Source of the DNA: Tribonema minus
Taxonomy: Eukaryota; Sar; Xanthophyceae; Tribonematales; Tribonemataceae
DNA: 64,000 bases
Reading direction: 5' to 3'
NCBI GenBank assembly: GCA_017506865.1
Contig: JAFCMP010000025.1
Location: 124,001 to 188,000, forward strand
Positions 503-64,000 of this stretch are shown piece by piece; the first letter of the stretch is position 1; each line of letters starts with the position of its first letter. Below the pieces are notes generated by a model. It saw nothing but the letters and a program-made list of their open reading frames with translations, had not been told where the DNA came from and did not search any database. The position numbers and the translations under genes are program-made.

Positions 503-562
503 CCCCCCCCCATGCACAGGTGGACGGTGCCGTGGCGGCGTGTGACATCAGCACTCTTCCCC
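503..562 (+). repeat. Partial copy of IFT122 exon 1 start with acceptor
   Basis: A C-run, the acceptor ATGCACAG and about 40 bp matching the first codons of the 623-761 exon (CGTGTGACATCAGC) occur upstream of the real exon. The real exon has the same C-run and acceptor in front of it. Confidence 0.8.
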
Positions 563-622
563 ATGTCTGCTTGAAGCTAGGATTAACGTTACCCCCCTTC
601 CCCCCCCCCCCCAAATGCACAG

Positions 623-3600
623 GTGGATGCTGCCGTTGCGGCGTGCGACATCAGCTTGCGGCGGCAGAGCGTGGCAGTGCTCGACTGCAACGAGAAGCTC
701 ACCGTCTTTGACCTGGCCACGCGCAGCGTCACCTTCCAAGAAGCCGGCGTCACCAGCGTCGGTGCGTCCCTGGTGCATGTTGAAGTGGAATAACTTCAAG
801 TTGCTTTGTGGCAGTATTATGGGACATCTTCAAGTTGACTTTGTGCGTCTCTGAGACATGTTGAAGTGGAATGGGACATCTTCAAGTTGACTTTGTGAGC
901 GCACGTGCGCCATCTCAAAGGCCAATGGTCAACATTTGCGAACCTCAAGGTTTTTGAACGAGTACCATGCAGGCACCTCAGCGTGGTGTTCTGTATTTAC
1001 TAACCCTAACCCTAACCCTAACCCTACCCCTCGGGCACCTTTTCTGTCGGTATGTTCAATGAGCAGCGGACGCAGCGACGCTTGCCCCTTTTCTAAAAAT
1101 TGGTGTGCTACCAGTTCTGCTGTCAGTCCAAGGCGTGTATACATTGGATAAGCGTACGGCAGACACCGCCCCTTCATGGAATGCTGTAGGTATCGTGACC
1201 ACATACCACAATAGCCCTCAAACATTACTTGCGGTATGATAACATGCTTATGTCCTTTGAACTACAACACATTGGTACTTTTGTGAAACGTATACACGTG
1301 CATGTACTCATGTAAATCTGTGTTGGTATCCGCTCGTGCACAGCCTTCAACAGGGAGGTGGAGGAGATGCTGTGCTTCACCAGGAACGCGCCAAGTGGCG
1401 GCGGTGGCAGCGGCTCAGCTGGAGCAGCACTGCTCATCAAGACGGCAGACTTCCCTGTGCACCAGCAGAAGTTCGGCGGCACCGTTGTGGGCTTCGCTGG
1501 CAGCAAGGTAGGGACAGCTGTGCAGTGTGGATTCACAGACTTGTTCTTTGAAGTACATTATCCACAATGAGCGCAAGGTAGGCACAAGCATTGCAATGAG
1601 GAGGCAACAGTTTGTGGAAGCTGCAAAGACACTTCAAGTGCAAGGTACAGACAGGTGTGAGGCGTACAACACACATCCTTGTGATGTACTGTGAAGTACA
1701 TGCAATGTGTTGTGCAGTGTATGTGTAGTGTATGCATAATGTATGCACAAGCACCTCAATGTTGATGCAACAGCTCATGGATTTTTGCAAAGGTGCTTCA
1801 AGAGCAAGGTTCCAGGCAGCCGTGAGGTGTGCAGCACTCTGTACATTTCAACTATACTCAAAACGGGTATGTACTTTGCACCAGTGTCTACCCTTGTTCA
1901 GCTGTGAAAGCAAGTGAAGTGCCCTGTGTGGTAGGCCTTGAATAAAATCCACTAGCGAAGCGAATGAAAGCCACTGGCAAAGTGCCATTGATGCCCATCC
2001 TTGGTCGATGCGAGCCAGGATACGGTTGATATGTGCATGCCTCAAACCTGTACAGCAGGTTTATTACCATGTTCAAAATGCAGTACCTCAGCAGTGCATG
2101 CTAGCAAAGGCAGCAGAGGAGGCTGAGAGGCATCGCCACACTGCAAGTGCTGGGCTTATGAGAGTGAACTGCAGTATTACACAACACAAAGAGCACAACG
2201 TGAACTTCATACGGTAGGAAGTAGCGTCAAGTTTCGTACAACACGCCCGATACGCGCTTTGAAGCTGCTGGTTCTGAATCCCCTGTACCAGATGAAGCAG
2301 CAAGTGTCAATGTCTGGCAATGACCCCTGGGGGCGTGCCACAGACACATGAGGTACACCGTGTACTCCTCGTGTGATCACTCTGCACCCTTTGTGAACTC
2401 GCGTGAGGCCAGGTGTACTCTGTCAGCGGACGCGCGATGACCCCTGTGGACATGCCACAGATGATGAGCATGTGCCGTGAACTCCTCGTGTACTCACCCT
2501 GCACCCCTTTTGAACTTGCTTGTGAACTCACGTGAGGCCAGGTGTACTCTGTCAGCGGAGGCGCGATGACCCCTGTGGATGTACCACAAACAATGAGCAT
2601 GTATCGCTACATAGACAGGGGCGACTTTGCCGCTGCGTACAAGGTGGCCTGCCTGGGCGTCACGCAGGGCGACTGGCGGATACTGGCAGTTACAGCGCTG
2701 CAGGTACGCAAGTGCGCAGGATTGCAGGCATTTGCAGCAAGAACCACATGACATTGGCACATCGACTTTGAACTGGTGCTTGGCACATGCATGTTGCGCA
2801 TACATGAAGTGCTGTCAGCATTTATTGGTACTGTTTTCTTTGCACTGCCCGTGCTGCGTAGTTTAGAGAATGGGGCATGATCGGCGATTGATGGTACTTC
2901 CATACCTGCAGCGTTGCTGCCAGGCTTGAAGCAATTGCGTTGCCACTGCCGATGTGCCAAATGCCCAGAATAACGCAGGGTCAGGGTCAGGTTCGGGGTT
3001 GGGGTCAGCTGGAAGTCGTGAGAGTCAGGGGGGTGCTGGAAGCTACAGCAGGTGTTGCCCTGACTGTCCGCTGACCGAAGACGGTCAGGGTTAGGGCTAG
3101 GGTTAGGGCAAAAGAGCGGTCCACCGTTAATCGCTCCCCCCAGCATCTGCTGTCCGCTTGTTCAAAGAGTAATCAGGGATGTGAATTAACCAATATCGAT
3201 TCACCTCTTATCTTCCGCGAGCTTCCTTCTAGGTGAAAGCAGAAGTTCGGGTTAGGTAAAACGTTAGCCTGCAAGACCTGCATCTTGATATTTGCCTCAG
3301 TCATCCCATAGCTTTCTGCTGTATGTACTTCTAGTGCCATCTCAAAGGCAGTAAACGTTGAATTGCGCATTGTGGGCAAGGTCACATCAGGGTGTACTTC
3401 CAGTAGGGGCACTTGAACTTTGTGGCATCTGCTCACTGACCTTCAGGGTGTGTCTCTAATGTTGTGTAAAACTGCTCCAGTGGTGGTCCAATGATCATGC
3501 AACGCGTTCAGGCAATGCGGCTGGATGTTGCCGGCACGTAGCGCATGTAGTCCCATCCAAATTACTTCACCATACACAAAGGTGGCCGTTGCAGCTTCTG

Positions 3601-6600
3601 TTGACCGATCTGCGTTCTGCCTCCACTTTCTCCTCGATTGCCACAACATGCATGCAACTTGCGCAGGCGGTGCGGCTGGACACTGCACGCAAGGCCTTCA
3701 TACGGCTACATAATTTCAGCTTTTTCTCCACACTTTTGTACATGGTTGTGCAATTGATGCAGGCAATGCGGCTCGACATTGCACGCCAGGCCTTCATACG
3801 CCTGCGCGACATGCGCTTTGTGGACCTGCTGGCCAGCATGGCTCAGCGCCAGGCGCAGCAGCAGCAGCGCTCAAATGATCCACAGGCCAAGGCCGCCATG
3901 GAGCAGGATGCGGTGAGCATATAATGCATAATTTTTAATGAACTCATAAAGTAGTTGAATGATAATGCATGGTTTTTGATGAATCCATGAAGTAGTGGAA
4001 TTGTGGACCTGCCAGGCGCAGCAGCAGCAGCAGCGCTCCGTGGATCCGCAGACCAAGGCCACCACGGAGCAGGACGCGGTGAGCCGATAGTGCAGTTCAT
4101 ATTACTTAAATGGAGGCCATGCACACTTCAGCCGCAGACCAAGGCTGCCGTGTCGGATTAAAGTCATGGTGAAACTGACACTTTCTGTGACCCCCTTTTC
4201 AATCACTGAGCTGACCCGCAATCTGCGGTTAGGGATAGGGTTGGGGTCAGGGCTAGGGTTAGGGTCAGGGAGCACTCAGCACATGTGAGCCGCGGAACAC
4301 AGTGTTGGTGTGGCTGCTGTCATGCTACTTGGCATGTATGCTCCTGAGCGTTTATCATGCTGGCTGTCTACTTAGGGTTAGGGTTAGCTAACCCTAACCC
4401 TTCTGCGTTCTACCGTGCTGAGCGCAGAGACATGGCACTCAATTTACATTCCGCTGCACCCGTGCGCAGCTGGCGGAGGTGCTGGCATTTCAGGGTATGT
4501 ACCAGGAGGCGGCGCTCGTGTGTGGGTACTCGCTTGTGTCCTAACCCTAAACCTACCCCCCTAACCCTAACCCTAACTCCAACCCTAACCCTGCGCGCAG
4601 CTGGCGGAGGTGCTGTCGTTCCAGGGTATGTATCAGGAGGCGGCGCGCGTGTGGGCGCGCTGCGGCATGGTCGGCAAGGCCGTCCACATGTACGTCAGCC
4701 TGCGCCAGTGGGAGGAAGCCAAGGTAAGAAAGACAATGGCATTGCAACGTTCATAATACTTTCTGCCGAGCACTGCGCTGTAACGTGTGTTCGTTGTGGA
4801 CAGGTGTTTGGGTTACTTATGTGCGCCAGTGAGCCTGCGCCAGTGGGAGGACGGTGAGGGAAGAGTAGGATTGATGTTTGCGTCAGTGAGTACGTATGCA
4901 CAAGGGCTTTTGTCGTTGATGCAACTAGGGTCAGGGTCACATGTGCCGGCGATGGCCAGACGCATGTACGTTAGCCTGCGCCAGTGAGAGGAAGCCAAGG
5001 TCAGGGCTGTAGCATTGTGTTTTCTCTCAAGGCAGCCTGAGAACTACACCGCAACGTGCACAAGTGGTCGTATTTTAACGATGGGTGCAGCTAGCGGTAG
5101 GTATAGGGCAAGACCATGCACATGTACGACATCCTGTGCCAGTGGGAGCAGGCCAAGGTATGGACGATTGTTGCATCGTACCGCTTATGAACATTTTCTA
5201 CACTGCTATAGCCAACCGAGCACTGCGCTGTTATGTGTGTATGCGTCGAAATTGTTACTGCCGTTATGGTTGCGGTCAGGGTGTCTGGGTCACACATGCC
5301 TGCGACAGATGAAGGCCAAGGTAAGGAGTTGATAGCAGTACTGTACAGTACTGTAGTCATTATCACGATTTATGCTCAAGGCAAATTGGAGAAAGTACTG
5401 ATCGAAGCATTTTGCAGTAGTGCTCACTTGTTCGATTGAGTAAGAGTGATCATTTTACGGTATGCATGAGGGTCACAGTTGCTTATGTGATCGCTGGGTA
5501 GCGTCAACGCCAGGGTTGAAGTTAGAGCTGGCGTGACATCCACCGACTTTGGATAATGGGCGTGTGAAGCCCCAGTACAAATTCCATGAACTTTCCGTCA
5601 AATAGCCACAAATGTCGCAGTAGCATGGGGCATCGAAGGCAAAGCATCTGATCCTTTCTGTGATAAGCCCCGTCTCGTGAATCGTGTTGTGCAGAATGTG
5701 CTGAGCATTGAGTCTCACCTGTTTGGTCACGCAGGTGTTTGCTGCCAACGCCGGCAACGACAGTGGCATCACCGTGCAGGACCTGGTGCGGCAGCAGGCC
5801 AAGTGGGCAGAGGAGGTGGGAAAAACTTCAAGTACATGAACTTGAAAAAGTGGGGGATTGTGCTAGGGCTTCGCACCTCATGCTAGGGAACAGTCAAAAC
5901 TTGTTGTGGCGTGCAAAGTAGGCCAGGCAAGCACCAGTGCGTTTCACACAATTATGCCGTGCAGCTGAAGAGGTCAAAGTTCAGTTTGTCGCCTGTGTGC
6001 TTTGCCTGTCTGGACTGCAAATACATTGTTTAATCACTATTCTATGTCCAAAGAGCGAATTGTTTTTCATCAATTTCAATACTTGTACTAGTTTTTGTTA
6101 TATTGTGTGTGACTGAATAAGCAGACCGAAGAAGTGGCGCTGTGTTGCTGACTCGAACTGACTCGTGTACCTGACTCATCTACCCAACTCGTCGCCTGAC
6201 ACGCAGAGCCTCCTCGTCATGTAACGATGATGCTACAAATTCAATCTCATTTTCCATCGACGCCCACTGATATAGCTGCCCTGCGCTACTGCTTTTGCAT
6301 TTGTATGAACCCACATCAACGATTGGTGCGGCTCCGCTGACATGTACCTGACTCATGACCTGACCCGCGCTGTGCCAACTGCTCCCTTGTATTGTGACAA
6401 TGATGCGACAAATTCATTTTCTTTGTCAACAGACGCCCGCTGATATAGCTGCCCTGCGCTGTTTTTGCTGTCGCAATTGCGTAAACCCAGACCAACGACT
6501 GGCGCGGCGCTGCTGACATGTACCTGAGTGCTGGGGACGGTATGAGCGCTGCCACAATTGTGTGTCAGCAGAGCACCAAGGACGCCAAGGCCAGGGAGGG

Positions 6601-9600
6601 GTGGCAGACGGTGCTGATTGAGGTGACGCATACTTCAATTGTCTACTTGAATTTACATTTTTCTGCTGTGATGGTATGAGCGCTGCCACAATTGTGTGTC
6701 AGCAGAGCACCAGGGACGCCAAGACCCGGGAGGGGTGGCAGACGGTGCTGATTGAGGTGATGCATACTTCAACTGTGTACTTCAATATTTTTTTTGCTGC
6801 AATGAAGCCTGAGTAAAAGTGGCTTACCTGCCTAGTGATGCCGGAGTAAAGGTGGCTTACCTGGCTAGTGTTGGGGTGTAAGTGGCGCTTGAACTCAAAA
6901 AGTGCTTCAAGTATGCGTACATGCAAAGTGGTGGGCTGAGGTTGCAGATGCGGACGACAAAGTCTCAATGGTTTGCCGTGATGTCAGCTGATGACACATG
7001 TTATCGATGGCGCATTTCGGCACAGTACAACAAGCATGCGCAAGTAAACTCGGGCAGCTTGATGCGGGTGCATAGCTCATTGAGCCTCTTTCCCGCAGCC
7101 ATTACGAGCTGCTAGGGCAAGGTGAGGTATTGCTGATGCGCCTTTCAATACTTTTGACCTAGCCTTAGGGCTGCCAATTGGTCTGGTGATACACGATGTT
7201 GTCGTAGGTGAGGTATGGCTGATTAGCCTTCCGATAATATTGACCCTAGTCTTAGGGTCGCCAACTGGTCTGGTGATAGGCGATGCTGTCGCAGGTGAGG
7301 TATGGCTGATTAGCCTTCTGATAATATTGACCCTAGCCTTCGGGTCGCCAACTGGTCTGGTGATAGACGATGCTGTCGAAGGCGCGGAGACCAGTTTCTC
7401 ATCAGCATTGGGTTTGGGTTAGGATTAGGGTTAGGGTTAGGGTTAGGATTAGGGTTAGGGTTAGGGTTAGGCGCTTCTTTGACCGAATCATGATGCAGCC
7501 GCTACCAGACACAAATCAAGTGTTGAGCACATCGGGCGTCGCCAAAATCCACTTGACGGCATATGAAACAGAGGCAACGGTTACCGCAGCGAACGGCGCG
7601 GCGTCGGAGACACTGCCTGGCCCACTGGCAGTTGGAAACAGCCCGCGGGGCTGCGTCTGACTCATTGCCATCGACTCGAGCTGTTGTATTGAAGGCAGTG
7701 GCCGACCCTGAACGCACAATCCGCATCAGCCGAAAAGGTGGCAACCGTTACAGCGCGCACGACACGCAGAGCGGCTTCTCAGGCTGCCGCGCCCGCAATT
7801 GCCCGTGGCAGGAGGTTTAAAGCTGTACTAGGCTAGGGCAACATGAAAGACAGCAAGGATAGAGCATGCACACGACGACCAATTGTGCCACCACCAGGTA
7901 TCGTCTTGAGCGAGGAACACGGAGACTTAGATGAAAAGGACCACCTGTGTGTGTGAGTGTTTTTAGGTCCGTCTCCACCCGACGACCGTACTCCACCAGC
8001 ATCTCTCTCTCTCCTTTTCATCCAAGGTTCCATGTCCCTCACTCAAGATGATACCAGGTGGTGGCACAATCGGTCGTCGTGTGCATGCTCTCTCCTTGCT
8101 GTCTTTCAAGTCGCCCTCGCCTAGTACAGCTTTCAATCTCCCGTCACGGGCATTTGCAGGCGCGGCAGCCTGGCGAGCGGCATCGTGTTCTTGTTTGTGT
8201 TGTAACGGTTGCCACTTGTGCGGCCAATGCGGATTGTGCAGTAAGGTTGGCAACTGCCTCCGATGTGGCAGCTTGAGTTGACGGCAATGAGTCAGACACA
8301 GCGAGCGGGCTGATTTCAAGCGCCAGTGTTGACGTCTCGCATGTGCGCGTTGGAACACATGGTTGGGACCAAGATTGAGTGATGATCTAGGGTTAGGGTG
8401 ACTGTGCCCCATTACTTTCTGGATTTAACACAGTACTTCATAGATGATTCCCTGCAAGCCTTGAAGCAGCAACGCCACATGTTGGGCACTGGCAGCGGCT
8501 GCCGGCCTATAACCACCGAGGGTTGAGATTGGAATGAAGGTTTGGTAATCTGTATGCCTTGGACCTAACGCTAACCCTCGCCCCAAGCTAGCACTGCCGA
8601 GAGTTTAATACTATGACTGATACGACGCCCTGCGTGCGTTCCTTGCACATTGCCCACAGATTGCGCGCAACGTGAAGAAGACCGACACGGACGTCCTCAA
8701 GGTGAGCCGTACGCTTAGGGTTATGGTGAGCCTTGCTAGGGTTAGGGTTAGGGTTAGGGTTAGCATTGGGAAGAAGACCGACACTGACGTCCTCAAGTGA
8801 GTTTGCGGCTGCTGGTGTTGCACTGCATGCGGTGACAGTGCTCATGAAGTTGCTGGTGCAGTGGCAGCATGCCTTAGACCAAATGCAACGAATGTTATCT
8901 AGTTGCAGCGTGTTGGAAGCCCAGCTGATCAGCAGAACTGATGCTTGGCGTATGGCATAGAAAGAATTCGATTACGGCCAGAATAAACGAGTAGGGCTGA
9001 GTAGAGGATTAGGTCTGAAACTGAATGCACATTGTTGTCAATGCCCAAATGCATGGTGGACTGCTAATGTGTGAACAGCAGTATTTCAAGCGACGCCTGC
9101 AACCATTGAAGTGCCGCTTTGATGAGAACAGAAGAAGTACTGTTCAGGATGTGACAGTGCCCCGCAGCTCTTACCTCCCTTTTGGCCCTGGAAGCGCGCA
9201 GCACTGGGGGCCACAGTATAGCGTTAGGGTCAGGGCTAGGGCTAGCCCGACGCTAAGTCTCGTCAGCCTGATGCGCTGTTTGGTGGTTGCTGGCGTCAGT
9301 GCAGTCTGATCGCTGCAGAGCAGTCAACCCTTAGGAACTCATGGACTAGGACACCTGCGCCCTCCATGAAAAAACAACATAATATGGGACAATGCTGGCC
9401 AAGGCCTTACTGCATGATCCAGCGTTGGACCGGTAAGGTTAAGGAGACAGTGCAACTGCATGCCATTTGTCATCAAATGTTTGCGCGGCTCTGCGGCGAC
9501 GCATTTGTCGCAGCCGGAGAGCATGAGTCAGTGCTCAGCCCAAACCTACCCTACGCAAGCTGGCAGACCACAGCCCTCGATCAGGTTAAGGTCAAGGGTG

Positions 9601-12600
9601 AACGTTAGCCTAAGGGTAAGGGAACACTCAAATCCCTGCGTCCCACTGGCATGAGCATACCCCGCCGCATTGCCGGGTCTTGCGTCATTGCAAACAACAT
9701 TTTGTTATCCTTTCAGCGAGGCGATGCACACATCGTGGCCGGCGCGCACAAGCTGGGCTTGGCAGTGCTGACTGCTCAGTGCTCAGCAAGCTGGAGGCTA
9801 CAGCCCTCACTTAGGGTTAGGGTTTTGGATCACTCCCAACTCCACGTCCCACCGGAATGCTGTACTTGACTGGCAGTCTTGTCACTTCAACAGCACCAGG
9901 TCTCATGAGCTGAAGACCTGCACCGCTTGCGAGTGACTTCAGTCTCATGAGCTGAGAACCTACACCGCTGCAGCAGCGCTGTGAGTGACTTCAGTACCAC
10001 GTCGTTTCACCTGTGACTTCATTGTCCCCTCAGCTCTGCGGCGACACGTGCGCCTCCACTGGCAAGCACGAGCTGGCCCTGGAAGTGCTCAGCAATCTCT
10101 GAAGGGCTATAGCCCTCACTTGGGATTAGGGTTTCAGATTATTCCCAACTGCACGTCCGACCGGAATGATGTGTTTGATCTCGTCACTTCAACATCACCA
10201 GGCCTCACGCCCTTTCAACTGTGACTTCTTGATTGCTCCCTCAGCTCTGCGGCAACGCACTTGTCACTTGAGATTGCCAGGTGTCACGTCGTTTCAGCTC
10301 CTATAAAACGACACAGTGTCACCTGGCACAGTGTGACTGGCGGTCTTGTCACTCCAGCATCACTACGTCTCACGTCGTTTCAACTGTGCCTTCTTGATTG
10401 CCCCCGCAGCTCTGTGGCGACACGTTTCTTGCTGCGGGCAAGTACGAGCTGGCCCTGGAATTGCTCAGCAAGCTAGAGGACTACAGCCCTCACTTGGGGT
10501 TAGGGCTTTGGATCACTCCCAACTCCACATCCGGCCAGAATGACGTGCTTGGTCTCATTACTTCAACATCATTAGGCCTTACATTGTTTCAACTGTGACT
10601 TCACCGTCCCCTCAGCTTTGCGGTGACACATTCGTCGCGGCCGGCGAGCACGAGCTGGCCCTGGAAGTGCTCAGCAAGCTGGAGGACTACAGCGCACTCA
10701 TGGCGCTGCACGTGCAGCGACAGGACTGGGTCGCGGCGGTGAAGCTCAGCGAAGAGCACGCCGGCAAATTTGACCAGGTTAGTGCCAAAAGGCTTTGTTG
10801 TTTACGGTATGTAGGGGTTATGTATTTTTATTAGGGTTCAAGTTGGGGTAGGTTTAAATTGTCGTTGCACGTGCAGCGCCAGGACTGGGTGGCAGCAGTG
10901 AAGCTCAGCGAAGAGCACGCCGGTAGATTTGACCAGGTTAGTGCTGTAGGCTTTATTAGGATTGATTTAGAGCTTAGGGTCGGGTCAGTATAATATTGCA
11001 TGAACCCGCAGTAGGTCGCAGCGGTGAAGCTCAGCGAAGGACACGCCTGCAAATGCGACTCGGTCAGTGTTGTGCGCTTACTTAGAGTGGGGAGTGATTT
11101 GCTAGGCTTACGCACTAGGATAAGTATTGCACGAAACCTCACCAGCGCAGCGGTGAAGCTCAGTAAAAAGCACGCCGGCAAGGCAAATATGACCTGGCCA
11201 GGGCTGCCTAAGGCTTTTGCGCTGAGGGCAAGAGCTTAGTGGCTCGCTGCCACTAGATGCAAGTGACTTAGGAACTGCAACATGTAGTTGCAACATCTAT
11301 TTATTGGTGGAAGGCACTTGCGGCTAACCATCCCTTGTCACCTAGAGCTCTACGATCTTTTGATTCCTTTCCATCTAATTACCAGTGCTATTGAACTGCA
11401 ACATGTAGTTGCAACATCTAATTACCAGTGCTATTGAACTGCAACATGTAGTTGCAACATCTGATTACCAGTGCTATTGAATAATGCGCTCAAGGACTTG
11501 GTTCTGCTGCATCATCGTAGAAAGTGTTCCTGATTTATGGTGTGAGTGGCGCCTGCTTGAATACAACGACAACAAAGAACCTTCGACATTTGTGCGTTAC
11601 ACGCATGGATTGTGCTGCCCCTTGAGATTTATCACTTGCTCGTGAGCTGCTGCATCCTCACTGTGTCGCAACAGAAAGCGTTCCAGCCATATGCGGAGTG
11701 GCTTGCCGCCACAGGCCGCTTCGATGACGCCTTGCTGACGTACCGCTGCACCGAACAGAGTTTCTGCATTCATTTTTGCCAGTTGCTACCGCAAAACTTT
11801 CACTGTCGCCATGATGTGTGCTGCCTCAAGCACCCTGTGCAAAATCGCTTGCTGCCGCCTGATTGCAGAAAGAATTTCTGCCATATGCAGTGTGGCTCAA
11901 GCCTCCGCACCCTGCAACATTGTCACCTGCAAAAAGCTTAGGGTTAGGGTTAGGGTTAGGGTTAGGGTTAGGGTTGTGCACTCAGAAGCGTTCTGCCTCA
12001 CCGACTCTTGAACATGCACCTGCGCCCCATTGCAGAAAGTATTCCTGCAATACGCGGACTGGCTCGCCGCTACGGGCCGCTTCGACGCCGCTTTGGATGC
12101 CTGCCGCCGCGCCGAACTGAGCCTCCGCACGCTGAATTCTCATCAACCCCGATACCCCCTGCCTGATGCACCCAGAACTGTTCTGGTCAAAGACTCCCTT
12201 CAATGCTCACTGCCGCGCCATCACAGAAAGTGTTCCTACCTTATGCGGAGTGGCTCGCCGCCACGAACCGCTTCGACGACACCCTGGATGCCTACCGCCG
12301 CGCCGTCCTGAGCCTGCGCACGCTGCGGCAGCTCCTCAACTTCAAAACCCTCCGCCTGATGCACTCAGAGCCATTTTGATAAAACCTAACCCTAACCCCC
12401 AACCCTCATCCTCGCTGCCGCGCCATCAAGGAAAGTGTTCCTGGCATACGCGGAGTGGCTCGCCGCCACGGGCCGCTTCCACGATGCCCTGGATGCCTAC
12501 CGCCGCGCCGACCGTGACGACTTATGCCCTGCATTTTCATCAACTTCGATACCATGCGCTTGATGCACGCAGAGCCATTCTGATCAGACCTCACCCTAAC

Positions 12601-15600
12601 CCCCAAACCCTAATCCTTGCTGCTGCGCCGTCACAGAAAGTGTTTTTGCCGTACGCCGAGTGGCTCGCCGCCACGGGCCGCTACGACGACGCACTAGACG
12701 CCTACCGCCGTGCCGGCCGTGCGGATCTGAGCCTGCGCACGCTGCGGCAGCTCATCGAGACCAGCGCCGTCATGCAGCGCTACAAAGACGCCGCGCACTA
12801 CCACTGGCTCAGCGCGCGCGAGGTGCTGGGGGGGCTCAAGGGGGGGGCACGCTCAGGGTGGGACCAGGTGAGCTGGTAGAGAGCTAGCGCCTCAGTTTTA
12901 GCGGCCTTGGAGTGAGGGTGGTGGGACCAGGCGAAATTAGTGATGCCTAAGTTGACAGACTGGCACATCTGGTGCGACTGTCATCTTGAAGGGTCTTTTG
13001 TGATGACGCTAACGCGCGGGAGGTGTGGGGGGGGCGCAGTTGAGGCAAGACTCGGTGACCGGCACTCAATTGGCGGAGCCAGTGCTCAGCACTAGCACCG
13101 GCATGCCCTCAGGCATACGGCTCGAAATTGCAGGAGAACGTCTTTCTGGGTGAGTTCGAAAAGCAGGTCTTCCTCCAACGTTGACCAAGTTAGCAGTTGA
13201 CGTGCTTCAAGATTATACACACACGCAACCTGATTGTGGCCTGGTGTCCGAGTATGAGGTCAGCTTCACAAGAGCAGCTGCGCTTTCTGTGGTAATTGGA
13301 GAGGAAGGCAACGTATAAACATGTGTACCTACTTAGGATATGTATGCACCCGCCTTTGTTTCGGGGGTTTATGGTCGCCTTCGTTTCAGGGGTTTATGGG
13401 GAACCTCAAGTTACAGTAAAAGTCATAAATTTATTGACGCTGGCGTCGTTTGCAGGCTCTGATGCAAAAGGGTCACACTGTGTTGCCTGCTGTGTCATTG
13501 CAGGAGGAGAGGGCGGCGTACGCGGCCTACGAGGCGCACTCCCTCAAGGCTGACCTGTACTACGCTTTCTATCACGTGCACAGGTGAGCGATGCCACCAG
13601 TGATGAGCGTTGCCAACAGTGAGCCACCAGTGATCAGCGATGCCGCTATTGATGAGCGATGCCACGAGTGATGAGCGGTGCCACTATCGTTGAGCGGTGT
13701 CACCAGTGATGAGCCATGTCACCATTGATGAGCGATGCCACTATTGTTGAGCGATGGCACCAGTGCTGAGCGATGGCACCAGTGCTGACCGATGCCACCA
13801 GTGATCAGCGATGTCACCATTGAGTAGTGATGGTACCAGTGATAATCGATGCCACCACTGCTGAGCGATACCGCCAGTGATGAGCGATGCCAACGATGAG
13901 CAATGCCACTGGTGATGCCACACGTGATGAGCAATGCCACTGGCTATGAGCGATAGGGCTAGGGTTAGTCTGGGCAGGGGGGTGAGGTGACTGCCACATA
14001 GATTAGCACAGCGATTCTCACTTTAGCAGTTATTTTAACAGAGTCGCATCAGCACTCAGGGCGTCTCGTCCTGCTTGCTCCCACAACCTTTGTGCTGACC
14101 TGCCTGCTGACACTCATATGCTTTGACCTACGTGTATTGCAGCCCATGTAGTACTCGAAGGCCTTACGCAGTCGCAACACTGGACCCTTCTGTATGTGCA
14201 TTCTCTCAAGACCCTACCCTTCCGAGCGTGCCCTTTACATTTTCCAAAGAGTCCACTAACACCATCAAGTCAGTCAGTGCTCAGCGCTCGTACACATCAC
14301 GCAATCACAATGCCTGGTGCCTCCTGACCGCCCACGTGATAAGTGCGCATCTACACGTTCAACTGACTCATACATCATGTATGTACGTATCATTTGCGTA
14401 TGCGCAAGGCAGTGTTCAGCGCTGATGCGCCTCATGCAATTGCAATGCGCGGTGCTCGCAGCTTCACAACGGACCCATTCACGAGCCTTCAGCCCGAGAC
14501 CCTCTTTCAGGTGGGCGATGCTTGGATGAGCTGCGGAGCGCTGCCGCAGTGTGTTCAGATGGCATGCCCGTGTACGATTTGAGGCTGACGCTACATCGCA
14601 ATAGACTTGAACTTTACCTGAGGCTGCTGCGGCGCCTGTGCAACACGCGAGTGACGTGAGTTCCTGCATATTGTGATTTTCTGCAGCCCGACAGGTACAG
14701 TATTTGTCGATTACACAGCTCGCAGGTCTTGGGAGCGGTGAGCGCGCTGCTGAGCACTATTGAGATACGTGTGTTGGAAAGTAGGATACTTGGACAAGTC
14801 CGGAGAGGAGGCAGAGTGCAGACTGGAGAGAAGTATTATATGCTGTAAAGCGCGAAGTGAATATTTTAAATGCACAGGTCCAGGCAAAGCACGGTAGAAG
14901 TACTGGCGATAAAGCCAGTGATGTCATGGGGAGACCGAAGCTCCCCACCAGGAGACTGAAGCTCCTCACCCTAACCCTAACCCTAACCCTTACCCTAACC
15001 CCAGGGGACTGAAGCTCCCCGGCTCACCCTAAAGCAATTCCAACAACGTATATACTACAGGACCACAAAGTTGTGCAAGGAATGGTGCCCACATTGTCTC
15101 TAAACCTAATGCTCAGCCCTTTTAGTATAAGGATTAGGGTTACACTGACCCTAGCCCTGACCCTAGGCTGCCGTGGTGCCACTGTGCGGCTCTGGGGTCA
15201 GAATTAGGGCCAGGCTTAGGATTAGGGGACCTTGAAAATATGGCGCTCGTGCCGGGGAATCAGCATTATATTGCTGAGGGCCAATAGGATTTGGCCCTGT
15301 CACGTATGTGCACTGCCCTGTTAGGTAACTTCAACTCTCACCTCCGTCACCCAAGCTTGGTGATGCGCAGACATGAATTTGTACGCTGAAGGTGCTCAGA
15401 CTCGAGTAGCTAGCGATAATGTTGCGCACTCACAGTGATGCCGCTCACATTGCTGGCGTCTGCTCTATCCCTACTGGTGTTATCGCTACTGCAGCTGCTA
15501 GTCTTGTGCATCCCAATGACGCGGATCACATCAGTGCCCCCCCCCTCGCCCCCCTTGGCGTTGAGCGCTGTTGCTGCGACATTATTATAGTCTCGTGCAT

Positions 15601-18600
15601 CCCAATGACGCGGCTCACATCAGTGCCCCCCCCCCCGTCCCCCTTGATGTTGACCACTGCTGCCGTGACAGGTGTCCCGATATCTCATCAACATTCTTGG
15701 CACGGAGGAGCCCCCAGAGGGTATCAGCAGAGTCCATACCCTCTATACCCTGGCAAAACAAGCAAAGGTCAGTGCTCAACATCCTGTCTCTGTGATTCTG
15801 GCAGCTTCATGAGCAGCGCTTGCGAACGCGAGAGGTCAACGTGCTGATGTCTGGAGGTAGAAAAGTTTGAGCAATGCAGAAGTGTCGGATCGGTTCTTGT
15901 CAATCAATGTTTTTAGGCATGCACCCTCGGGCAACATACATTGTGGTGTATGACGATACATTGTGAAATACGTGCTCTGTCTGTAACTCCACTACTCTCT
16001 CCTTAACTGCAGACCAGTCTTGAGAAATCTCTGACTCCCAGATCACCACCAGGACTACCTGTTTTAGGGCGCAGTGCAGACCAGGCTGCTGTGTAGAAGC
16101 ACTTTTCGCGATTGCATAGGACACCCGCCTCCTTTTTTGGCCTTCATAATACGAATCCACAAGCGCCTGATTACGCTGATGCCGACTCAGCTGCTGCACA
16201 TGCCCTTCTTCACATTTGCAGTCGCTAGGAGCCTACAAGCTGGCGCGCTCTGCCCTGGAGCTCCTACAGCGACACCGCATACCGGCGGCGTGGCAGGGGC
16301 AGGTATGTATCAGAAGCCAGAAATGCACTAATAAGCACAACAGCGCATCACCCACCCACAGGGGCACAACGTCGCATACATACACTGATGACCACAATGT
16401 ACACAGCAGCCGTTTTGTACTAATAAGCACGACAGGCAGGGGCAGGTATGTATTGGAAGCTAATCAATTGCGTGGGCGGGTATGTAGGCATGAGAGGCAT
16501 GCAAACCGTAAGCAGCGCCACAGCACATGTCTCAACAGGCACAGGCAGGGGCAGGTATGTATCAGAAGCCAGACATGCACTAATAAGCACGACGGCGAAG
16601 CACAACGCCACATACATACACTACTACCCGCAATGTACACAGCAGCTGTTGTGTTGTTGTCATTTAGGCACCCCCGCGCAGCAGCTGTTGTATTGTTGCA
16701 CATGTAGACACTCTACGGCTCTCCCACGCGAGGCATGGGGACATTGACCGAGAGCGAGCTCACTGCTGTTGCTGGCTACTCATATTTTTTTCCTGTTGTA
16801 AAGACTTGGTACACACGTTGTGCTTGCTATGTGAATACATGGACATGTGCAGGGAGAAAATCACCCATCAATGACGCTCCTAACCCTATCACGTGCACGC
16901 GCATGAGGATCCGCGCATGCCCAACCCCAATACAAACCCTAACCCTCCCACCCTAACATGCGCATACGCAGGTTGACATGGACATGCTATCAGTACATTC
17001 ATTTAGCAACCCCTCACCGCGCACGCGCACGTGGACCCAATCGCATACTCGCCCTAATCTTCGTGACCCTCAAATGCACATGCGCAGGTTGAGATGGACA
17101 TGCTATCAATACAGGCGCGCCCCGTACGCGACCCCCAAGAACTGCTGCCCGTCTGCTACCGATACTTACCCCTAACCCTCCTACCCCTAAAATGCGCATA
17201 CGCAGGTCGACATGGACATGCTATCAATACATTAATTACCCCTCACCCTATACTAGCTCTAACCCTCATAAGTTATATCCCTGTCGCATACACACGCACG
17301 TGGATCCGCGCATGCCCAACCCCAATACTAGCCCTAACCCTTCTCTTGTACCCCTAAAATGTGCATACGCAGGTTGACATGGACATGCTGTCAATACAGG
17401 CGCGCCCCGTACGCGACCCCCAGGAGCTACTGCCCGTCTGCTACCGGTGCGGCAGCTCCAGCCCCCTTCTCAGCACGCGGGGGGAGGGGGACACGTGCGC
17501 GAGTTGCAAGCACCCGTTCGTGCGCTCTTTCCTCACGTTTGAAGTTCTGCCGCTGGTGGAGTTCCGCCCTGCGGACGGCATCAGCGACGAGGACGCGCTG
17601 GGTATGATAAGGTATGTAGGCTTAGGGCTAGGGCTAGGGTTAGGGTTAGGGTTAGGGTTAATACTAGGGTCTGAATGTGTTTGGGCTAAGGTTAGAACGA
17701 GGGGGCTGTGCACACGACAGGTACATCCGCCGGGGTGCAGAGGTCAGGAAAGCAGCAGATGAGGACGCGCTGGGTGATCAGGTGAGCGGAGGTGAATGCT
17801 GGTGGTAGGCTTAGGGTTGGGGCTAGGGCTAGGGTTTGGCTGTTTAGGGTCAGGGCTAGGGTTGCTTCTGCGCACACAACTTGGAAGTACATCGGCCGGC
17901 GCAGCAACACAGCATGCAGTTTCACAGGGAGGTTTGTGAGGCGAAGGTGTGCCACATGTCATGCACTTTGGTGCGCACGAATGGGGGTGATGCACAGCGT
18001 GCAGACCTGACGTGCGGCAGAAGACCTGCTGGTCGGCATGGCGCACGCGGTGCTTGCATGTAGAGAGTTGCCGCCAACACCACCCGGCTGGGCCTCTGAG
18101 CTGGTGCCGCCGTGTCATATTCCGGGTGATGTGCCTGTGCAGTTTGGGATGAGGGCACGTCCTGCTTGGGGTATGGTTTAGGGGTAGGGTTTCACCTAAA
18201 TGGCGGGCGCGCTGAAAAAAATGTTTAATCACAAAGCAGTGCAGCGTGGTCAGGCGTTTAAACATCGGGCATGTGGTACTTGTTCAAGTAGCAATCTTCA
18301 CACTTACAGAAATGGCGCATGTATGTGGTGCAGGTTCAAGACCTTCAATTTTTCAAGCACAGCATCGCAACCTGATCAACAAAAGTACCATCGCATCATG
18401 CTGAACTGATGCAGCCTTGGAAGCATGCACAGGCTGCGCAAGGTCAAGGTACTTCAACGTGTCGACTGCCATTCGCAGAACCGTGGTGCAGATGCAAAAG
18501 TAGGGTTGGTGTATGGTGCCATGGGCTTGGAGTGGTGTCGTGCCAAATGACATGCTAGATCTCTAACAGCACGTATGACACAGATAAGAGTAAAGTCGAA

Positions 18601-18902: not shown

Positions 18903-18942
<40 letters not shown>

Positions 18943-44524: not shown

Positions 44525-46067
44525 GTACTTTTTATTAATTCTCGCTCAGGGCGCGAAAAAGCCCAGATGATTGGCATCTAGCTGTAAGGAATCTACATGT
44601 CGTATGACAGTCTGAAAGTGTCGCAACGACAACCACTCAAACGCCGCCGCCGCCAAATGGCATCTCGGGGTCCTCCCCTACGTCCTCCTCCATGTGCCCC
44701 CCCCCCCTGGATTCTGCCATGTGTGTCATGACACGGCCAGAGTACGCCATGTGGAGCGCTGCCGACAGTGCCGAGCGTAAGCGCGCCAGGGCGATGCCCT
44801 TGAGAGCTTTAGGGCGCGCTCCTCCGGGCACTGACATCCTGCTGGCATACTCCGTCGCCACAGCCTCCAGCAGCTTCCGCCCCTGCTCCCCGATGCTGCC
44901 AAATGACCCTATTGCCAATGTGGCAAGTTTGTAGCAATTCTGATCATAATGACCAGAATAGTGGGTAGTCTTGGCGGCCTCTTGGTCGCGGCAGCATCGC
45001 TCGGGGTCTGCTGCAGTCTTCGCCGCCCGCGACGCCACCTGTGCCTCGAAGCAGGTAACGTCCACCATGAGCGGTAGGTGGCGTGTCGGGTCGTCGTAGC
45101 CGGTCACCGGGAAGGCGTCGGCAGGCAGCACGATGTCCATCCTGCGACTCCCCGGCGGCCCGGCGGACCCCAGAAACGGCGTGTAGTCCTCGTCCACCAG
45201 TCCCGTTTTGAGGTATTGCCGCAGGAGGCGCTGCGTGGCCCTCTTGACGCTATTGTGGACAATGGTGTCGTGCGCCTTGACGCGTGGCGCTTGACACAGC
45301 CGTGCATGCAGGGTGCCGCCCGGCGACTTCCCGCACAGCTTGCAGCCTGCCGTCTGCTCCTCTACTCCGATGGCGCGTTTGACGGCCAGCTGCCAGGATA
45401 GGCCATCGAACGAAGCCGTTGTGGAGTACATGGGCTCGTTGAGGAATGCCATGCCGATCGAGTGCATGTGGCGCTGCGACCGGAATCGAGCAAGTGCTTG
45501 CGTGCGTTGCGTGCCCTGCGGCAGCTGTTGCAGGTCCGCCTCCACCTTATCTGCAAGCTCGGTAGCGACGGCATCTGCAAGCGCACTCTGATTGGGGCGC
45601 TTCAGGCTACACTGCAACTGCAGAGCACTGGCGTCAAGTACGCAAGCAGCATCCGCACCAGTGCCACCACCTGCTGTCGGCCGCAGCGGCGGCTGCTGCG
45701 TAGGTGGTTGCTGCTGCAGTGGCGTTAGCGCTGGTGGCAGTATATGTTCCAGCTTGTCACCTGTTGCTGCACGTAGAGATGTGGCAGCTGTGGCGATCGT
45801 CCGCATGAGGGGCAGGCGCGCCACCTCTGCTGCTGCTGCGCCTTGTAGCATTGCTGGTGTGGAACGCGCAGCGCCTGCATTGACGGCTGCCGCTGCTGCG
45901 TGCGCTGTACTTTGAGGCCTGGGTGACACTTGCGCCATCTCAAGACTGATGTGATCAATGTGGTCTAGAAACAGAAACGTTGGGTTGCAGTTCGCCCAAA
46001 TCCCCGTACAAACATGAACAAATTTTTGATGCTTATAATTAGGCCTGGAATTTAAATCCAAGCGCAA
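44525..46067 (-). mobile_element. LINE-like element copy C, with C-terminal restriction-like endonuclease frame
   Basis: An uninterrupted frame of 476 codons (first ATG at 45938) ends at 44637. Its C-terminal half has a zinc-knuckle-like CKLCGKSP...LHARLC, RRMDIVLP, PLMVDVTCF (acidic residue of a PDDEXK-like site), then Lys in a QEAAKTTHY context, and the IGSFGSIGEQG block. This layout matches the region after the reverse transcriptase in non-LTR elements with a restriction-like endonuclease. The reverse transcriptase itself is absent, so the copy is 5' truncated. It ends in a 3' region with AATAAA and AAGTAC. Near-identity with copy E implies recent activity. Confidence 0.75.
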
Positions 46068-56521: not shown

Positions 56522-59320
56522 CTATTCCGCGGCTTTCTGCTGGCTGGCGCCGCCTGAGCGCTGCTGCTGCCGCGCATCCGCCTCCCGCCGCGGCGGCCTA
56601 CTCAGCGTACTCCGCACGCGCCCCCCCCCCCCGTGCCCCCCCCGGGCCCTGTACCCCCCCCCCTGCTCCTGCTCCGGCCCCCTCTCCCCCCGCGCGCGCC
56701 GCGCTGCGCCCGTACCCTCCCCCACTGGTCTGTACTCCCAGACCTTCCCCGCAGAGTTGCGTATCCGCTCACGCACCTCCAGGTCCGCCTTGTGGTCTAT
56801 CGATTCCAGCGCCTCGATGAGCTCGCTCTCCTGCAGAAGCAGAGGGGGGAGGGGGGGGGTTGGGGGTTGGGGGGGGGGGGGGGGTGCTGAGCACTGCGCC
56901 AGGTAGGTACTTGTGCATGTGGCGGCGGGTGCGGCGCGTTGCACATGCCGATTTCGAGCGTGTAGTGGAGGTAATGAGGCTGGGTGTTACTAGTCTACAG
57001 GCAGCGATGCAGTATGTGGCTGCATGCGAATGCCCTCTACCTCTGACCCTTACCCCAGGTCACATCTTATGAGGTCGTGGAAGTGCAACGGTTTCGTCAC
57101 AGCAGCAGAGCCCCGCTTGACCCGAACCGCACAATCGCCCCGCAGCCACTCTAGCGCTGAATGCAAAGCGCAAGACACGCAAGCTGCAGAAACGCTCACA
57201 GCACCACACGATAAACACCTTGCTTACGCAAGCGTAAGGGGTAGAGAGGTCAGCACAGCGCTGCGCATTGTGGCAGCGCTCGGCGCTCACCTCGATGAAC
57301 GGGATCTTCACGACCGTCTCCCAGCTCTGGCGCTTGCCGTTGGCGTCGCACTCAAAGTCCTGCGGGTAGAAGTGCAGTATCGGCGACTGCTCCCCGACCA
57401 TGAGCTCCTGGTACGGCTTCGGCAGAAAGGGCGCGCTTGCGCCCGGCAGCACGCTGAGCAGCTGCATGAGCGGCGGGAAGGGGCGTCCCCTGTTGAACTT
57501 GATGTCGAGCGCCGCCAGGTCCTTGAGGTCGCTGCCGAGCGGCGCGTACAGGTGCGGGTAGTACCAGCTCCACGAGCTGCTGTCGACGCCGCGGTGGTAG
57601 TACTGGAGGACCCAGTACAGGCCCTCGATGTAGTGCGTGACGAGCGCGCGGCGCGCGGCGGCGTCGTCCGCGCGCAGGCCCAGCTTGCTCTCGTAGTAGC
57701 GCTCGCGGTACGTGTCGGGCGACTGCAGCGCCGCGTCGCTCTCCTCGATGCCGCGCTGGCGGAAGTACAGCGGCTCGCGGCGCGCGACCTCGTGAAGAAA
57801 CAGCTCCAGGCGCCCCCTGTGGATCTGGAAGGGAGAGCGGAGAAAATAGCGTGGTCGCGGGCGGTGGTTACGATTGCGAATGTGGGAACAGTTCCAGGCG
57901 CCCCCTGTGGATCTGGAAGGGAGAATGGAGAAGATAGCGCGGTCATCGCGGGGGCGGTGGTTACGGATGTGAATGTGGGAAGAATCGCAGTCGCGTCACC
58001 AACTGTGAGCACTGTCAGCAGCTGTCAAGTACCACTGCAGCACTTCCATGCAAAAGTTCAACGCAAAAGTTCAAGTCATCCGCCAGCGGCGAGCGACGCT
58101 CCGCGCCTCACCTCGTCCTTCTTGGTGAGGTAGCCGCCGAGCGCCGGCAGCATGTCCCTGTAGATGGACAGCATGGTGTTGAGCGCGCCGTCCGCTATGT
58201 CCAGGTGCGGCATATTCGGCAGGAAGTCATTTCCCACAAACATGCACATGAAGACGAAGTCGTCGATGACGCGCTCCAGGCTGAAGGGAAACGGCAGCGG
58301 CGCGGCGCCGCTCGCCTCCGCGCGGAACTGCAGGCGCAGCATCTCGCGCAGCATGGACACGCGCAGCAGCTCAAAGTCGTCGCGCGTGTAGTGTATGGGG
58401 TCCTTCGGGCGCCGCCGCCGCGAGTGCCGCACGCTCATCTTCTCGCGCAGCAGGTTGAAGTGCGGCTCGTGCGTCACGAGGCTCAGCATGATGAGGTCCG
58501 CGTCGAGGCCGTACAGGCAGTGGCGCAGGTCCGGCTTCCAGTCCGGCTCCGTCTCGCGCGCGCTGCGGATGTAGTCCATGACCTTGTGCTCCCCCTCCCC
58601 GGGGACGTCCGGGCCGCTGAACACGATGCGCGCGCCGTCGCGCCAGAACGGGTCCTCCTCTATCTTCGTTGCGATCCACTCGCGGAACGCGCGCCCCAGG
58701 TTGTACATGAAGTCCGTTCCCGGGGTGATGCAGTTAGAGTCAAACCTGTCCCCCTCCGGGAGGGCCCCCTCCCGCGCGACCAGTTCTGCGAGGGTCTGTT
58801 CCGCCTCCTTCGCGCTGCGGAAGCGGCGCGAGCGCTGCTGGTTCATCTTGGCCCGCGGCGCCACGCCGTCGACTGCCAGAAACATGAGGCGCGTGGGGGC
58901 CACGAGCTTGTACAGCCTGTCCGTGTAGATGAAGATGCGCTTGAACATCTCCTCCTCGTTCAGCTCGATGAACGAGTCGGCGTTATTGTGGGTGGCCATG
59001 TGGATGATGCCGTTCATATCTAGGTAGAAGTTGTCGATGGGGGCCGTCTCAGTGTTGAACCCATCGTTGATCTTCTGGTTAATGGCTGGGTATTGATCGG
59101 TCAGCCATCGGAACAGTTTGGGAATACCCATCGTCACAGTCCGACGGCCTCTGCTGCTCGCAGCCCTGCCATGTTCCAGGGATCTGCGGCTGCTGGCACC
59201 ACAGCAGCAGTGGCTGACGGCAGCGCCGAAGATGGCTGACGGGGTGAACGCCACAGACACCTCTCCTGGGCACACCACCGCTGCCAGCGCCACTGCATAG
59301 GCTCCACGCCGCGCCCTCAT
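56522..59320 (-). CDS. XRN-family 5'-3' exoribonuclease with plastid-type N-terminal leader
   Basis: Exons 58112-59320, 57291-57824 and 56522-56830, all phase 0, give 683 residues. The conserved start MGIPKLFRWLTDQYPAINQ begins at Met64 (59131). Further family blocks are LDMNGIIHMATHNN, MFLAVDGVAPRAKMNQQRSR, FSGPDVPGEGEHKVMDYIR, GLDADLIMLSLVTHEPHF and VGNDFLPNMPHLDIADGAL, which hold the acidic metal-binding residues. Exon 2 has SPILHFYPQDFECDANGKR, typical of the segment after the nuclease core. The C-terminal extensions of Xrn1/Xrn2 are absent. Residues 1-63 form a hydrophobic signal-like stretch (AYAVALAAVVCPGEVSVA) followed by FTPSA, then a Ser/Arg-rich part: a plausible complex-plastid leader. 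Initiation at Met64 would give a cytosolic or nuclear form. Confidence 0.9.
57880..57936 (-). repeat. Copy of XRN exon 2 start with acceptor
   Basis: CCAGGCGCCCCCTGTGGATC and TGGAAGGGAGA repeat 57805-57837. As in the other genes, the start copy lies upstream of the exon. Confidence 0.93.
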
Positions 59321-62384: not shown

Positions 62385-63701
62385 ACAGCACCGCTCTACA
62401 CACACACCCAGTTAGCCTTCCACGTCTCCCATCTAGCGGCCGGCGACCACGTCTAGCTTTACATTATAATGTTACGGGTATACCACGCTTTTTATATGTT
62501 TGGTCTGAGAGGGGCACCTGCGGCGTCGGCGGCGGCAGCATGACTGGGGTTGCAGTCAGGGGCGCATATAGCGCGCCCCGAGCCGCCCCTCCGTGAATTC
62601 ATGAAAATGGCAGCCCTTCTGGTTACTGGTCACAGGTATACACGGCCCCTTGCGGGGGAGGTAGGGGGGAGGGGGGGGGGAGTGCTGACCGCCGCCGTTT
62701 CCGCAGCTGTTGGCGGTGCGGCCCGTGCTGCATTTTCGGTACATGAACACTAGTAGAAGCATATCCTGCAAGGCGCCATCGTGACGTGTCTTGCTTCGTC
62801 ATTCTTCAACTTGATGTTTGCTGTCGCTCGTGCGCTGCCTCGTGCCTGCATGCCAACCTGCGCGATGTGCAGCTTTGCAATAATCAGTGCGCACGCCAGT
62901 GACACTTCACAATAAGTCTGGTCTTGCGTCCGCTGCTGCGCGGATAGCGACCGTTGCGAAGCCTAGGCCACGTCGCCGTCCATGCCTGTGGCAACTTCAA
63001 GTGGGAGCACTGGTGACTTGCCTTTGCTTACACCGCGTATGGCGCACATCACGTGCAGCATGCTGCCAACCAATGTACATGTAAGCAGTGCAAAGTTTTC
63101 ATATTTCAATGTCAACTGGAAGCGGCCCAGCTTCATCAAACGTGACACGCTGTTGCCGCAGCTAGTTTATTCTTCTCGAGTTGAATGTGCCTCACTACAC
63201 ATCACGAGTTTTTGTGTTGAGATCACTACCCACGCCACATGTTGCCGCGCGCATTTACCGGTCAGTGCGCCGCAGATTTCAAGCTGCACCAGCAATCGCA
63301 TCAATAGCGGCATGCACGTGTCTTGTCTGCGGAATTTGCACGCGGCGATTGCGCTTCTGTTAGCATGCTTGCAACTGTCATAATCACGAAATTCAGGCGT
63401 CATACGCGTACGTCAACACACAGTCAGGCAGACACTAAAATACACGGGCAACACCGCGACTGAGTTGTTCATTCAGCATCGATGCAAATCTGGCTGGAAG
63501 CCGCCGCCAAACACAACACCGCTTTTCGAAACAACGAATGCACAAACTTCAACTTGCAGCGGCTCATGCCAAACGGCGCTCTTCAAAACACGATCAGCGC
63601 GTCTCTCTCCGGCGTAGACTCATCGCTCGCGACGGCCTCCGCCAGGGCGCACCCACAAGTTCAACTTGCAGTAGAGCATGCAAAGTGACGCCCCACGCGC
63701 A
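62385..63701. other. No gene assigned; one exon-end copy at right
   Basis: Short conflicting frames only. At 63590-63650, GGCGTAGACTCATCGCTCGC and flanks repeat 63722-63760, the 3' border of the minus-strand exon that follows. Confidence 0.45.
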
Positions 63702-64000
63702 TCACGACCCGCGCGTCTCTTCCGGCGTAGACTCATCGCTCGCGCCGACCTCCGCCAGGCGCGTCACCTCCGGAGGCGCCCCGCCCCCCCCGCCCCGCCG
63801 TCCCCCCCCTCCCCCTTCCCCCCCACTCGGCGCAGCCCGCGCCGCCGCCGTCGCCGCCGCCGCCGCCGCCGATGCGTACAGCGAGCCGCGCTGCGTGCGC
63901 GCGTACTCGCGCAGCTTCCAGTCGACGACGGCGCGCCACAGCGGCGGCGTCAGTGCGCACGCGTCGGAGCCGTACGCGGCGGCCTGCGCGGCGAGCACGA
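63702..64000 (-). CDS. Partial gene running off the right edge, function unknown
   Basis: An open minus-strand frame reads SDACALTPPLWRAVVDWKLR and EYARTQRGSLYA followed by poly-Ala and Gly/Arg-rich linker, then VTRLAEVGASDESTPEE. Because an exon-end copy lies 3' of it (63590-63650), the exon probably ends at a donor near 63,708 rather than at the TGA at 63702. Confidence 0.5.
   Translation of the reverse strand, partial: VLAAQAAAYGSDACALTPPLWRAVVDWKLREYARTQRGSLYASAAAAAATAAARAAPSGGEGGGGGRRGGGGGAPPEVTRLAEVGASDESTPEETRGS

Follow-up and report, generated by a model that had tools for sequence, protein, structure and literature searches.

Decayed copies of exon borders suggest that introns of the alga Tribonema minus grow by short tandem duplications

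Introns of the yellow-green alga Tribonema minus (Xanthophyceae, PX clade) contain partial copies of the borders of the exons next to them, here called echoes. In three genes modelled within the window, that is, the whole 64-kb stretch of DNA under study (C25:124001-188000), 32 direct copies were counted, and in 32 of 32 the copies of an exon start lie upstream of the exon and the copies of an exon end lie downstream. We propose that the introns of this organism grow by frequent short tandem duplications and that copies carrying only one exon edge stay intronic and decay. The probability we attach to this proposal is about 0.78, lowered from 0.83 because a recount found many duplicated pairs in which the two copies are separated by a spacer. 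The analysis covered ~320 kb in total (window segments, kinesin loci, loci on contig C1 and other sets) of one genome, whose assembly comprises 158 Mb in 554 contigs.

Each exon of the IFT122 gene was compared alone with its two flanking introns (E value threshold 1e-3). The comparison returned 26 direct copies, 17 of them upstream and all matching the 5' part of the exon, 9 downstream and all matching the 3' part (Fisher p 3e-7); a single exon match was inverted, and 13 of 31 exon edges bear a listed copy. With a threshold of 1e-2 (weakest copy, 7e-3), the gene for the XRN 5'-3' exonuclease yielded one upstream copy, and that for a pyridoxal-phosphate (PLP) enzyme two upstream and three downstream copies, all following the same rule, with no inverted exon match in either gene at that threshold. 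Alignments shorter than 20 bp or of low complexity were excluded from these counts. The resulting set of 20 exon-start and 12 exon-end copies bears out the initial annotation of the window, made by reading its letters, in that introns hold partial copies of the adjoining exon edge and that these obey a rule of direction; the more than 50 copies it had announced were not reached, and its claim for every multi-exon gene that it could resolve is borne out for the three modelled genes. Shuffled sequence, a check it had put forward, gives no local direct duplications. When 15 IFT122 exons were compared with the non-adjacent introns of the same gene, 180 tests produced no match.

The direction rule can be explained by the geometry of tandem duplication together with the survival of a working gene. 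A short tandem duplication with one breakpoint in the intron and the other in the exon would create two copies of the border, of which the one still attached to the rest of the exon would stay exon and the other would turn intronic and decay neutrally. After duplication of a segment made of intron end, acceptor and exon start, only the downstream unit would be joined to the remaining exon; after duplication of exon end, donor and intron start, only the upstream unit would be. Hence the rule, first presented as an extra regularity, is already required by tandem-duplication geometry. It also speaks against a dispersed insertion of exon pieces, which could have placed them on either side. As to the origin of the duplications, they may arise by end joining of breaks with staggered ends, through fill-in and ligation, and arrays may then be enlarged by repeated events or unequal exchange; some arrays (L044, period ~108 bp) have probably grown by unequal exchange or further rounds.

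The IFT122 exons were located independently of the initial annotation, through five homologs with 34-44% identity (tblastn), and modelled by profile-based spliced alignment from 17 homologs. The model (623..19201, plus strand, extending upstream beyond the window) has 16 exons with GT-AG introns: 623-761, 1344-1507, 2542-2703, 3763-3912, 4601-4723, 5735-5815, 6491-6622 and 8660-8701 (exons 1-8), followed by 10616-10777, 12637-12867, 13510-13583, 14462-14510, 15672-15767, 16222-16302, 17373-17611 and 18688-19201 (exons 9-16). The acceptor at exon 13510 and the donor at exon end 3912 are less certain, and a predicted first exon at 74-91 was discarded as spurious ahead of counting. No T. minus IFT122 protein was among the matches listed in protein searches. 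Echoes of exon starts lie at 520..552 for exon 1 (88%, acceptor AG intact), 2317-2352 and 2413-2473 for exon 3, 3671..3707 for exon 4 (89%), 4470..4522 for exon 5 (91%) and 6317..6351 for exon 7 (acceptor AG lost, AC). Exon 9 has four (9183-9216, 9720-9804, 10034-10123, 10410-10497), exon 10 also four (11675-11753, 12036-12134, 12227-12337, 12432-12516) and exon 15 three (16972-16997, 17088-17161, 17206-17231). Echoes of exon ends, likewise on the plus strand, occur at 4011..4078 for exon 4 (with donor GT), at 4829-4851, 4940-4999 and 5107-5157 for exon 5, at 6664..6756 for exon 7 (94%), at 8763..8797 for exon 8 (donor lost, TG; exon positions 8-42 of 42) and at 10860-10936, 11014-11059 and 11146-11181 for exon 9. 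The occurrence of large arrays is thereby confirmed, with four echoes plus the exon at 11675-12867; this 1.3-kb array of exon 10 matched only itself in the whole assembly, in a search that skipped very common words.

The other two genes lie on the minus strand. XRN (56525..59320; exons 59320-58112, 57824-57291 and 56830-56525) has a spliced translation of 683 residues identical to the deposited T. minus 'dhm exonuclease' (P0081), and the custom profile spliced aligner, when checked on it, reproduced the gene exactly. The single echo, of the start of exon 2, is at 57887..57912 (26 bp, 96%, upstream in the sense of the gene). Coding pieces of the PLP enzyme (32124..35909) were placed, with approximate edges, at 35909-35805, 34870-34610, 33486-33088 and 32261-32124; the frames of the last two match Pfam Aminotran_1_2, and the first two were assigned from open frames by reading rather than by a search. 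Two echoes of the start of 34870-34610 were found at 34987-35048 and 35344-35367 (the latter weak), and three of the end of 33486-33088 at 32941-33011, 32791-32857 and 32599-32659.

The pattern recurs elsewhere in the genome. A sample of 20 kinesin loci (183 kb, 71 exon hits) gave 80 direct copies, of which 46 lie upstream and match the 5' part of the exon and 34 lie downstream and match the 3' part, without a direct exception (80/80) and with one inverted match in the main run; at least one copy was present at 35 of the 71 exons. Under alternative settings with low complexity masked, 86 of 87 copies (49 upstream, 37 downstream) were in line, with one direct exception (L041) and two inverted matches; an unmasked run was swamped by the low-complexity loci L041, L051 and L053. 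A first control with foreign introns was invalid on account of paralogs (134 direct and 0 inverted matches). A second, with the introns of other kinesin loci, gave 24 direct matches and 1 inverted match in 284 tests and was, we think, spoiled by unrecognised paralogous exons in those introns. For specificity we rely on the non-adjacent introns of IFT122 (0/180) and not on the kinesin controls.

Eight WD40 loci (L001-L008) were tested with the hits only, and produced 4 matches in 3 of the 8, 2 of them contrary to the rule; we take these as likeness among WD repeats, and they were excluded from the counts. With a longer exon, the WD40 genes L006 and L008 showed 9 copies in line plus one interior match in L008 (68%), probably the next WD exon. 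L006 (C533:317698) and L008 (C533:302920) are paralogs ~15 kb apart with unlike sets of echoes: their exons are 96% alike, and there are two downstream exon-end echoes in L006 (92-93%) against none in L008. The comparison of sister loci for a change in copy number thus gave a positive answer, and from this difference, in one paralog pair only, the duplication process is recent; the pair could serve for dating duplications. Repeated tandem duplication across intron-exon borders, with lengthening of the intron, as originally conceived for the window, accordingly extends to the 20 kinesin loci and to the L006/L008 paralogs. Matching hit patterns were also seen between C385:13917-16275 and C146:867248-869626, and between C349 and C29, which suggests that these contig pairs are haplotigs or recent paralogs that could reveal allelic differences in echoes.

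Local direct repetition makes up about a third of the intron sequence sampled. In a self-comparison of the window (E 1e-3, unmasked), pairs at most 1 kb apart comprised 70 direct and 15 inverted cases. Coverage was then measured on masked sequence, under stricter scoring, as local direct repeats at an offset of 60-800. It amounted to 33.6% (1-19600), 37.5% (19601-31600) and 37.2% (31601-36500) in the first segments of the window and to 14.9% (36501-50500) and 3.0% (50501-64000) in the rest; inverted repeats covered 0-0.5% of the window segments, and dinucleotide-shuffled loci had 0.0% direct-repeat coverage. Among 41 introns (median 1,034 bp), 28 had detectable duplication, 32.7% of all bases were covered, 21.3% had another copy downstream, and the number of duplicated bases rose with intron length (rho 0.53, p 4e-4). 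The duplicated units are direct and local, with aligned lengths mostly of 120-220 bp (median 158 bp for 55 that touch no exon, 167 bp across all 92). Tandem Repeats Finder, run with the numerical parameters used for Ectocarpus, reported 6.2-11.4% in seven sets; the Ectocarpus value of 3.35%, as given in the available text of PMC12477816, allows a rough comparison, as it also uses RepeatMasker and lets transposons take precedence.

Coverage within 100 bp of an exon and farther away was 0.40 and 0.34 in IFT122, 0.31 and 0.32 in the kinesin loci, and at the exon edges themselves 0.48 (n=31) and 0.33 (n=88). The notion that introns were built from exon borders in particular is therefore not supported, since coverage farther than 100 bp from any exon is about the same. 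On the best reading, exon borders are not special, and the echoes are what can be seen of a wider lengthening of introns by self-duplication; exon edges act as slow-changing anchors that expose duplications otherwise invisible. A different question is whether the duplications are specific to introns, and stem from transcription, R-loops or splicing-coupled breaks in the introns of long genes rather than from a genome-wide mutation bias. Kinesin coverage of 0.28 within the motor-domain span and 0.10 outside it (where the flanks are unannotated) would agree with such specificity, as would the zero coverage of 2-kb bins at 38-44 kb and 50-60 kb of the window; yet the empty stretches are mostly young repeat or coding sequence, and 15 loci on C1, chosen for telomere-like arrays and not for exons, still reached 17% coverage. 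We regard intron specificity as rather unlikely.

To judge from their divergence, the echoes evolve as dead sequence. Of 106 exon-edge copies, 91 are less than 95% identical to the exon (median 88%). Weighted mean identity between exon and echo is ~0.85 in the exonic part and ~0.74 in the intronic part, and between echoes ~0.80 and ~0.72, respectively. Changes were polarised in the 25 families that have two or more echoes: those private to echoes are nearly even over the three codon positions (0.072/0.067/0.096), as opposed to those private to exons (0.020/0.013/0.073; Fisher p 0.001). Indels in echoes shift the frame in 45 of 50 cases (lengths modulo 3 of 1, 2 and 0: 34, 11 and 5), an in-frame stop precedes the first indel in 5 of 106 copies, and C-to-T and G-to-A changes make up 126 of the 269 changes in echoes. 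Of the 71 kinesin exon hits, 45 starts and 43 ends were judged reliable for the counting of splice sites. The acceptor AG is kept in 35 of 41 echoes and the donor GT in 20 of 23, near the retention of ~0.82 computed from divergence at codon positions 1-2, and thus fits neutrality. An assembly artefact or chance similarity might be suspected from the few pairs that are 100% identical, but the divergence of the 91 copies, their frame-breaking indels and the empty shuffles reduce this to an almost negligible prospect.

The head-to-tail arrangement that tandem duplication would produce is found in part of the material. Under permissive scoring, 23 of the 40 kinesin edges with copies show some pair whose alignment spans 90% or more of its offset. 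Under stringent scoring, 13 of 32 pairs with at least 95% identity are head-to-tail within 20 bp, and for the pairs that lie clear of known exons, in loci where exons are known, the proportion is 10 of 14. A perfect head-to-tail duplication of 296 bp with 3-bp microhomology, at 44224..44818 of the window, is a young example of the event. Separately, 98 bp near the start of this duplication recur 4 kb off, at 48370-48467, with 99% identity.

A number of observations weigh against growth by tandem duplication followed by neutral decay. No pair aligned over most of its offset was found at 17 of the 40 kinesin edges. Only 18 of 129 pairs with at least 90% identity (stringent scoring) are head-to-tail within 20 bp, and the other 111 are blocks with a diverged spacer, of which 40 touch a known exon, 47 do not and 24 fall in loci without exon calls; of the pairs with at least 95% identity, 19 of 32 are spaced (9 touching an exon, 4 not, 6 without exon calls). 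It must be assumed that spaced pairs could result from quicker intronic decay and blurring by indels, from unrecognised exons or from later insertions. Microhomology at clean junctions measured 0, 0, 0, 2, 3, 3, 3 and 7 bp (8 of 12 pairs with at least 95% identity, chosen for lying within 20 bp); staggered-break end joining would fit these, although they are only eight. Further, 13 of the 41 introns have no duplication at all, and the share of duplicated sequence shows no significant increase in longer introns (rho 0.20, p 0.21). When only pairs with at least 80% identity are considered, edges exceed interiors, 0.29 vs 0.07 in IFT122 and 0.15 vs 0.06 in the kinesins, an excess that we attribute, without an exact correction for age, to slower change in pairs of which one member is constrained. 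The last two points concern decay. The ratio of nonsynonymous to synonymous change (dN/dS) between exon and echo is 0.27, below a simple expectation of ~0.5, a shortfall partly accounted for by the polarised counts and by high third-position GC. L001 (~146-733 as fetched, on the strand antisense to the gene) holds an exon-end block of 58 bp in five copies that are 93-97% alike next to strongly diverged flanks, a likeness beyond simple neutral decay.

This low dN/dS, the similarity of the L001 blocks and the mostly kept AG and GT dinucleotides are what could be expected of functional echoes, maintained by selection as alternative or decoy exons. Such a role is nevertheless quite improbable: the polarised changes are near-even by codon position, nine tenths of the indels (45/50) break the frame, early in-frame stops occur in the 5 copies mentioned, the retention of splice dinucleotides agrees with neutrality, and the XRN echo is left out of the deposited XRN protein. 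The suggestion that echoes might serve as alternative exons is thus not sustained, as they evolve like dead sequence.

Growth by tandem duplication further leads one to ask about copies of whole exons. Random placement of the observed unit lengths predicts that ~15% of exon-touching events would include a whole exon, while at most 2 of 106 copies span the exon to within 10 bp at either end (at most 2 copies beside 54 edges with echoes, P = 0.0075). Copies with one edge persist and those with both are rare, which is what would be expected if unpaired splice sites were ignored and paired ones used. The tolerance of echoes may thus be a matter of exon definition, under which splicing would pass over an acceptor or donor that has no partner on the other side of a short exon; this would also account for the scarcity of complete extra exons. 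The argument of the initial annotation, that echoes are tolerated since the outer splice sites remain functional, is supported. The contrast between surviving one-edged and scarce whole-exon copies provides a natural experiment on splice-site choice. Ectocarpus has been reported, in the portion of PMC12477816 available, to have mammal-like exonic splicing enhancers.

Interstitial TTAGGG-type arrays are present in introns of the window (4540-4592, 8737-8763, 11938-11975, 17617-17660 and others). One G-strand array begins 6 bp past the IFT122 exon end at 17611, and one C-strand array stops 8 bp short of the exon start at 4601. Genome-wide, (TTAGGG)4 has 3071 + 3991 overlapping matches, and a terminal array stands at the start of C2. 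Copies might then be made by interstitial telomeric insertions, or by introner-like transposons with long target duplications, given that such arrays are common, that duplication junctions coincide with or lie close to some of them (L036, L056, L039, window 4559 and 8736) and that many conserved blocks are separated by spacers. Flanking duplications, though, are hardly more frequent at telomere-like arrays (17/61) than at random points (95/400), echo sequence was not found in other IFT122 introns, and the exon-10 array was not found elsewhere in the assembly, all of which makes this origin very unlikely. Insertion of telomeric arrays as the cause was rejected, both ends falling within 25 bp at 3 of 61 arrays compared with 17 of 400 random points.

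Intron lengthening is usually attributed to transposons. Intron gain by tandem duplication is reportedly dealt with by Rogers 1989, Hellsten 2011 and Gao & Lynch 2009, and tandem duplications from staggered breaks are said to be the subject of Vaughn & Bennetzen 2014 and Schiml 2016. A precedent for short tandem duplication at exon borders in T. minus is the potato RNA-dependent RNA polymerase (RdRp) gene, in which, according to the accessible part of PMC4974935, one tandem duplication over an intron-exon boundary created a new intron. There too intron end and exon start were duplicated, and the copy included the parental acceptor and branch site. As described, however, that was one event in one gene, giving a new intron; in Tribonema many loci are involved, arrays are formed, and the copies are absorbed into an existing intron and decay. 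In the AGGT model of intron gain, as outlined in PMC3443670 and PMC2891723, introns are created by duplication of exonic AGGT segments. Short tandem duplication, copied splice sites and a reshaped gene structure are common to both, whereas the AGGT model makes introns from exonic segments and the Tribonema copies take in the border with its intron side and lengthen introns; in IFT122 they include that intron side and sit inside an existing intron. Staggered double-strand breaks joined by non-homologous end joining yield tandem duplications in mouse cells, on the account available in PMC5730883. These resemble ours in being direct, and the few clean junctions seen in Tribonema may share their scant microhomology, but they are described there as single repair events and not as a bulk builder of introns. 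Introner elements likewise alter intron content on a large scale through mutation (PMC9860276, as far as its available text goes); they insert into many genes and create introns, while the Tribonema echoes are local and gene-specific, with no new intron shown. Similar sequence in the introns of many genes, which introners would leave, was not seen (0/180 with non-adjacent introns; self-match only for the exon-10 array). In tandem exon duplication and mutually exclusive exons, exon sequence is also repeated in tandem, but, in the summary seen of PMC9013439, whole exons are copied and used; in Tribonema single edges are copied and look dead, with a whole exon in at most 2/106 and no coding constraint on the copies. 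No report of a genome with introns filled by self-duplication at this density was found in the open-licence literature. The individual events are ordinary and their density is extraordinary, with one potato gene as precedent.

Local duplication can still be made out in about a third of the intron sequence, earlier layers having presumably faded from view. Intron growth is here accessible to dating, to counting of events and to explanation by a mechanism. Xanthophytes are near the brown algae, hence the relevance to the long introns of the latter. The portion of PMC12477816 at hand gives a median of 524 bp for Ectocarpus introns, which make up ~46% of the genome, and describes long brown-algal introns without tracing them to tandem duplication. 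We tentatively suggest, at somewhat less than even odds, that a lineage-specific bias towards tandem duplication, and not transposons, is the main builder of long introns in Tribonema and perhaps in brown algae, and that the ignored splice sites of echoes offer a natural test of strict exon definition.

Among the remaining observations, a search for rbcL returned two broken nuclear pieces, and viral contigs were searched and no relative was found. At 42243-43133 of the window, an open frame encodes 296 aa that include a Fic domain. A repeat family at ~40004-40959, with 70-78% identity in dozens of places, is older than the repeats at 50-55 kb. These are a young repeat at 50500-54660, which shares 94-95% identity with copies on C18 and C74 that hold ~4.8 kb extra in the middle, and a second young repeat at ~55043-55617, present at 98-99% identity in at least 33 places (of 2025 candidates, 40 were scored).

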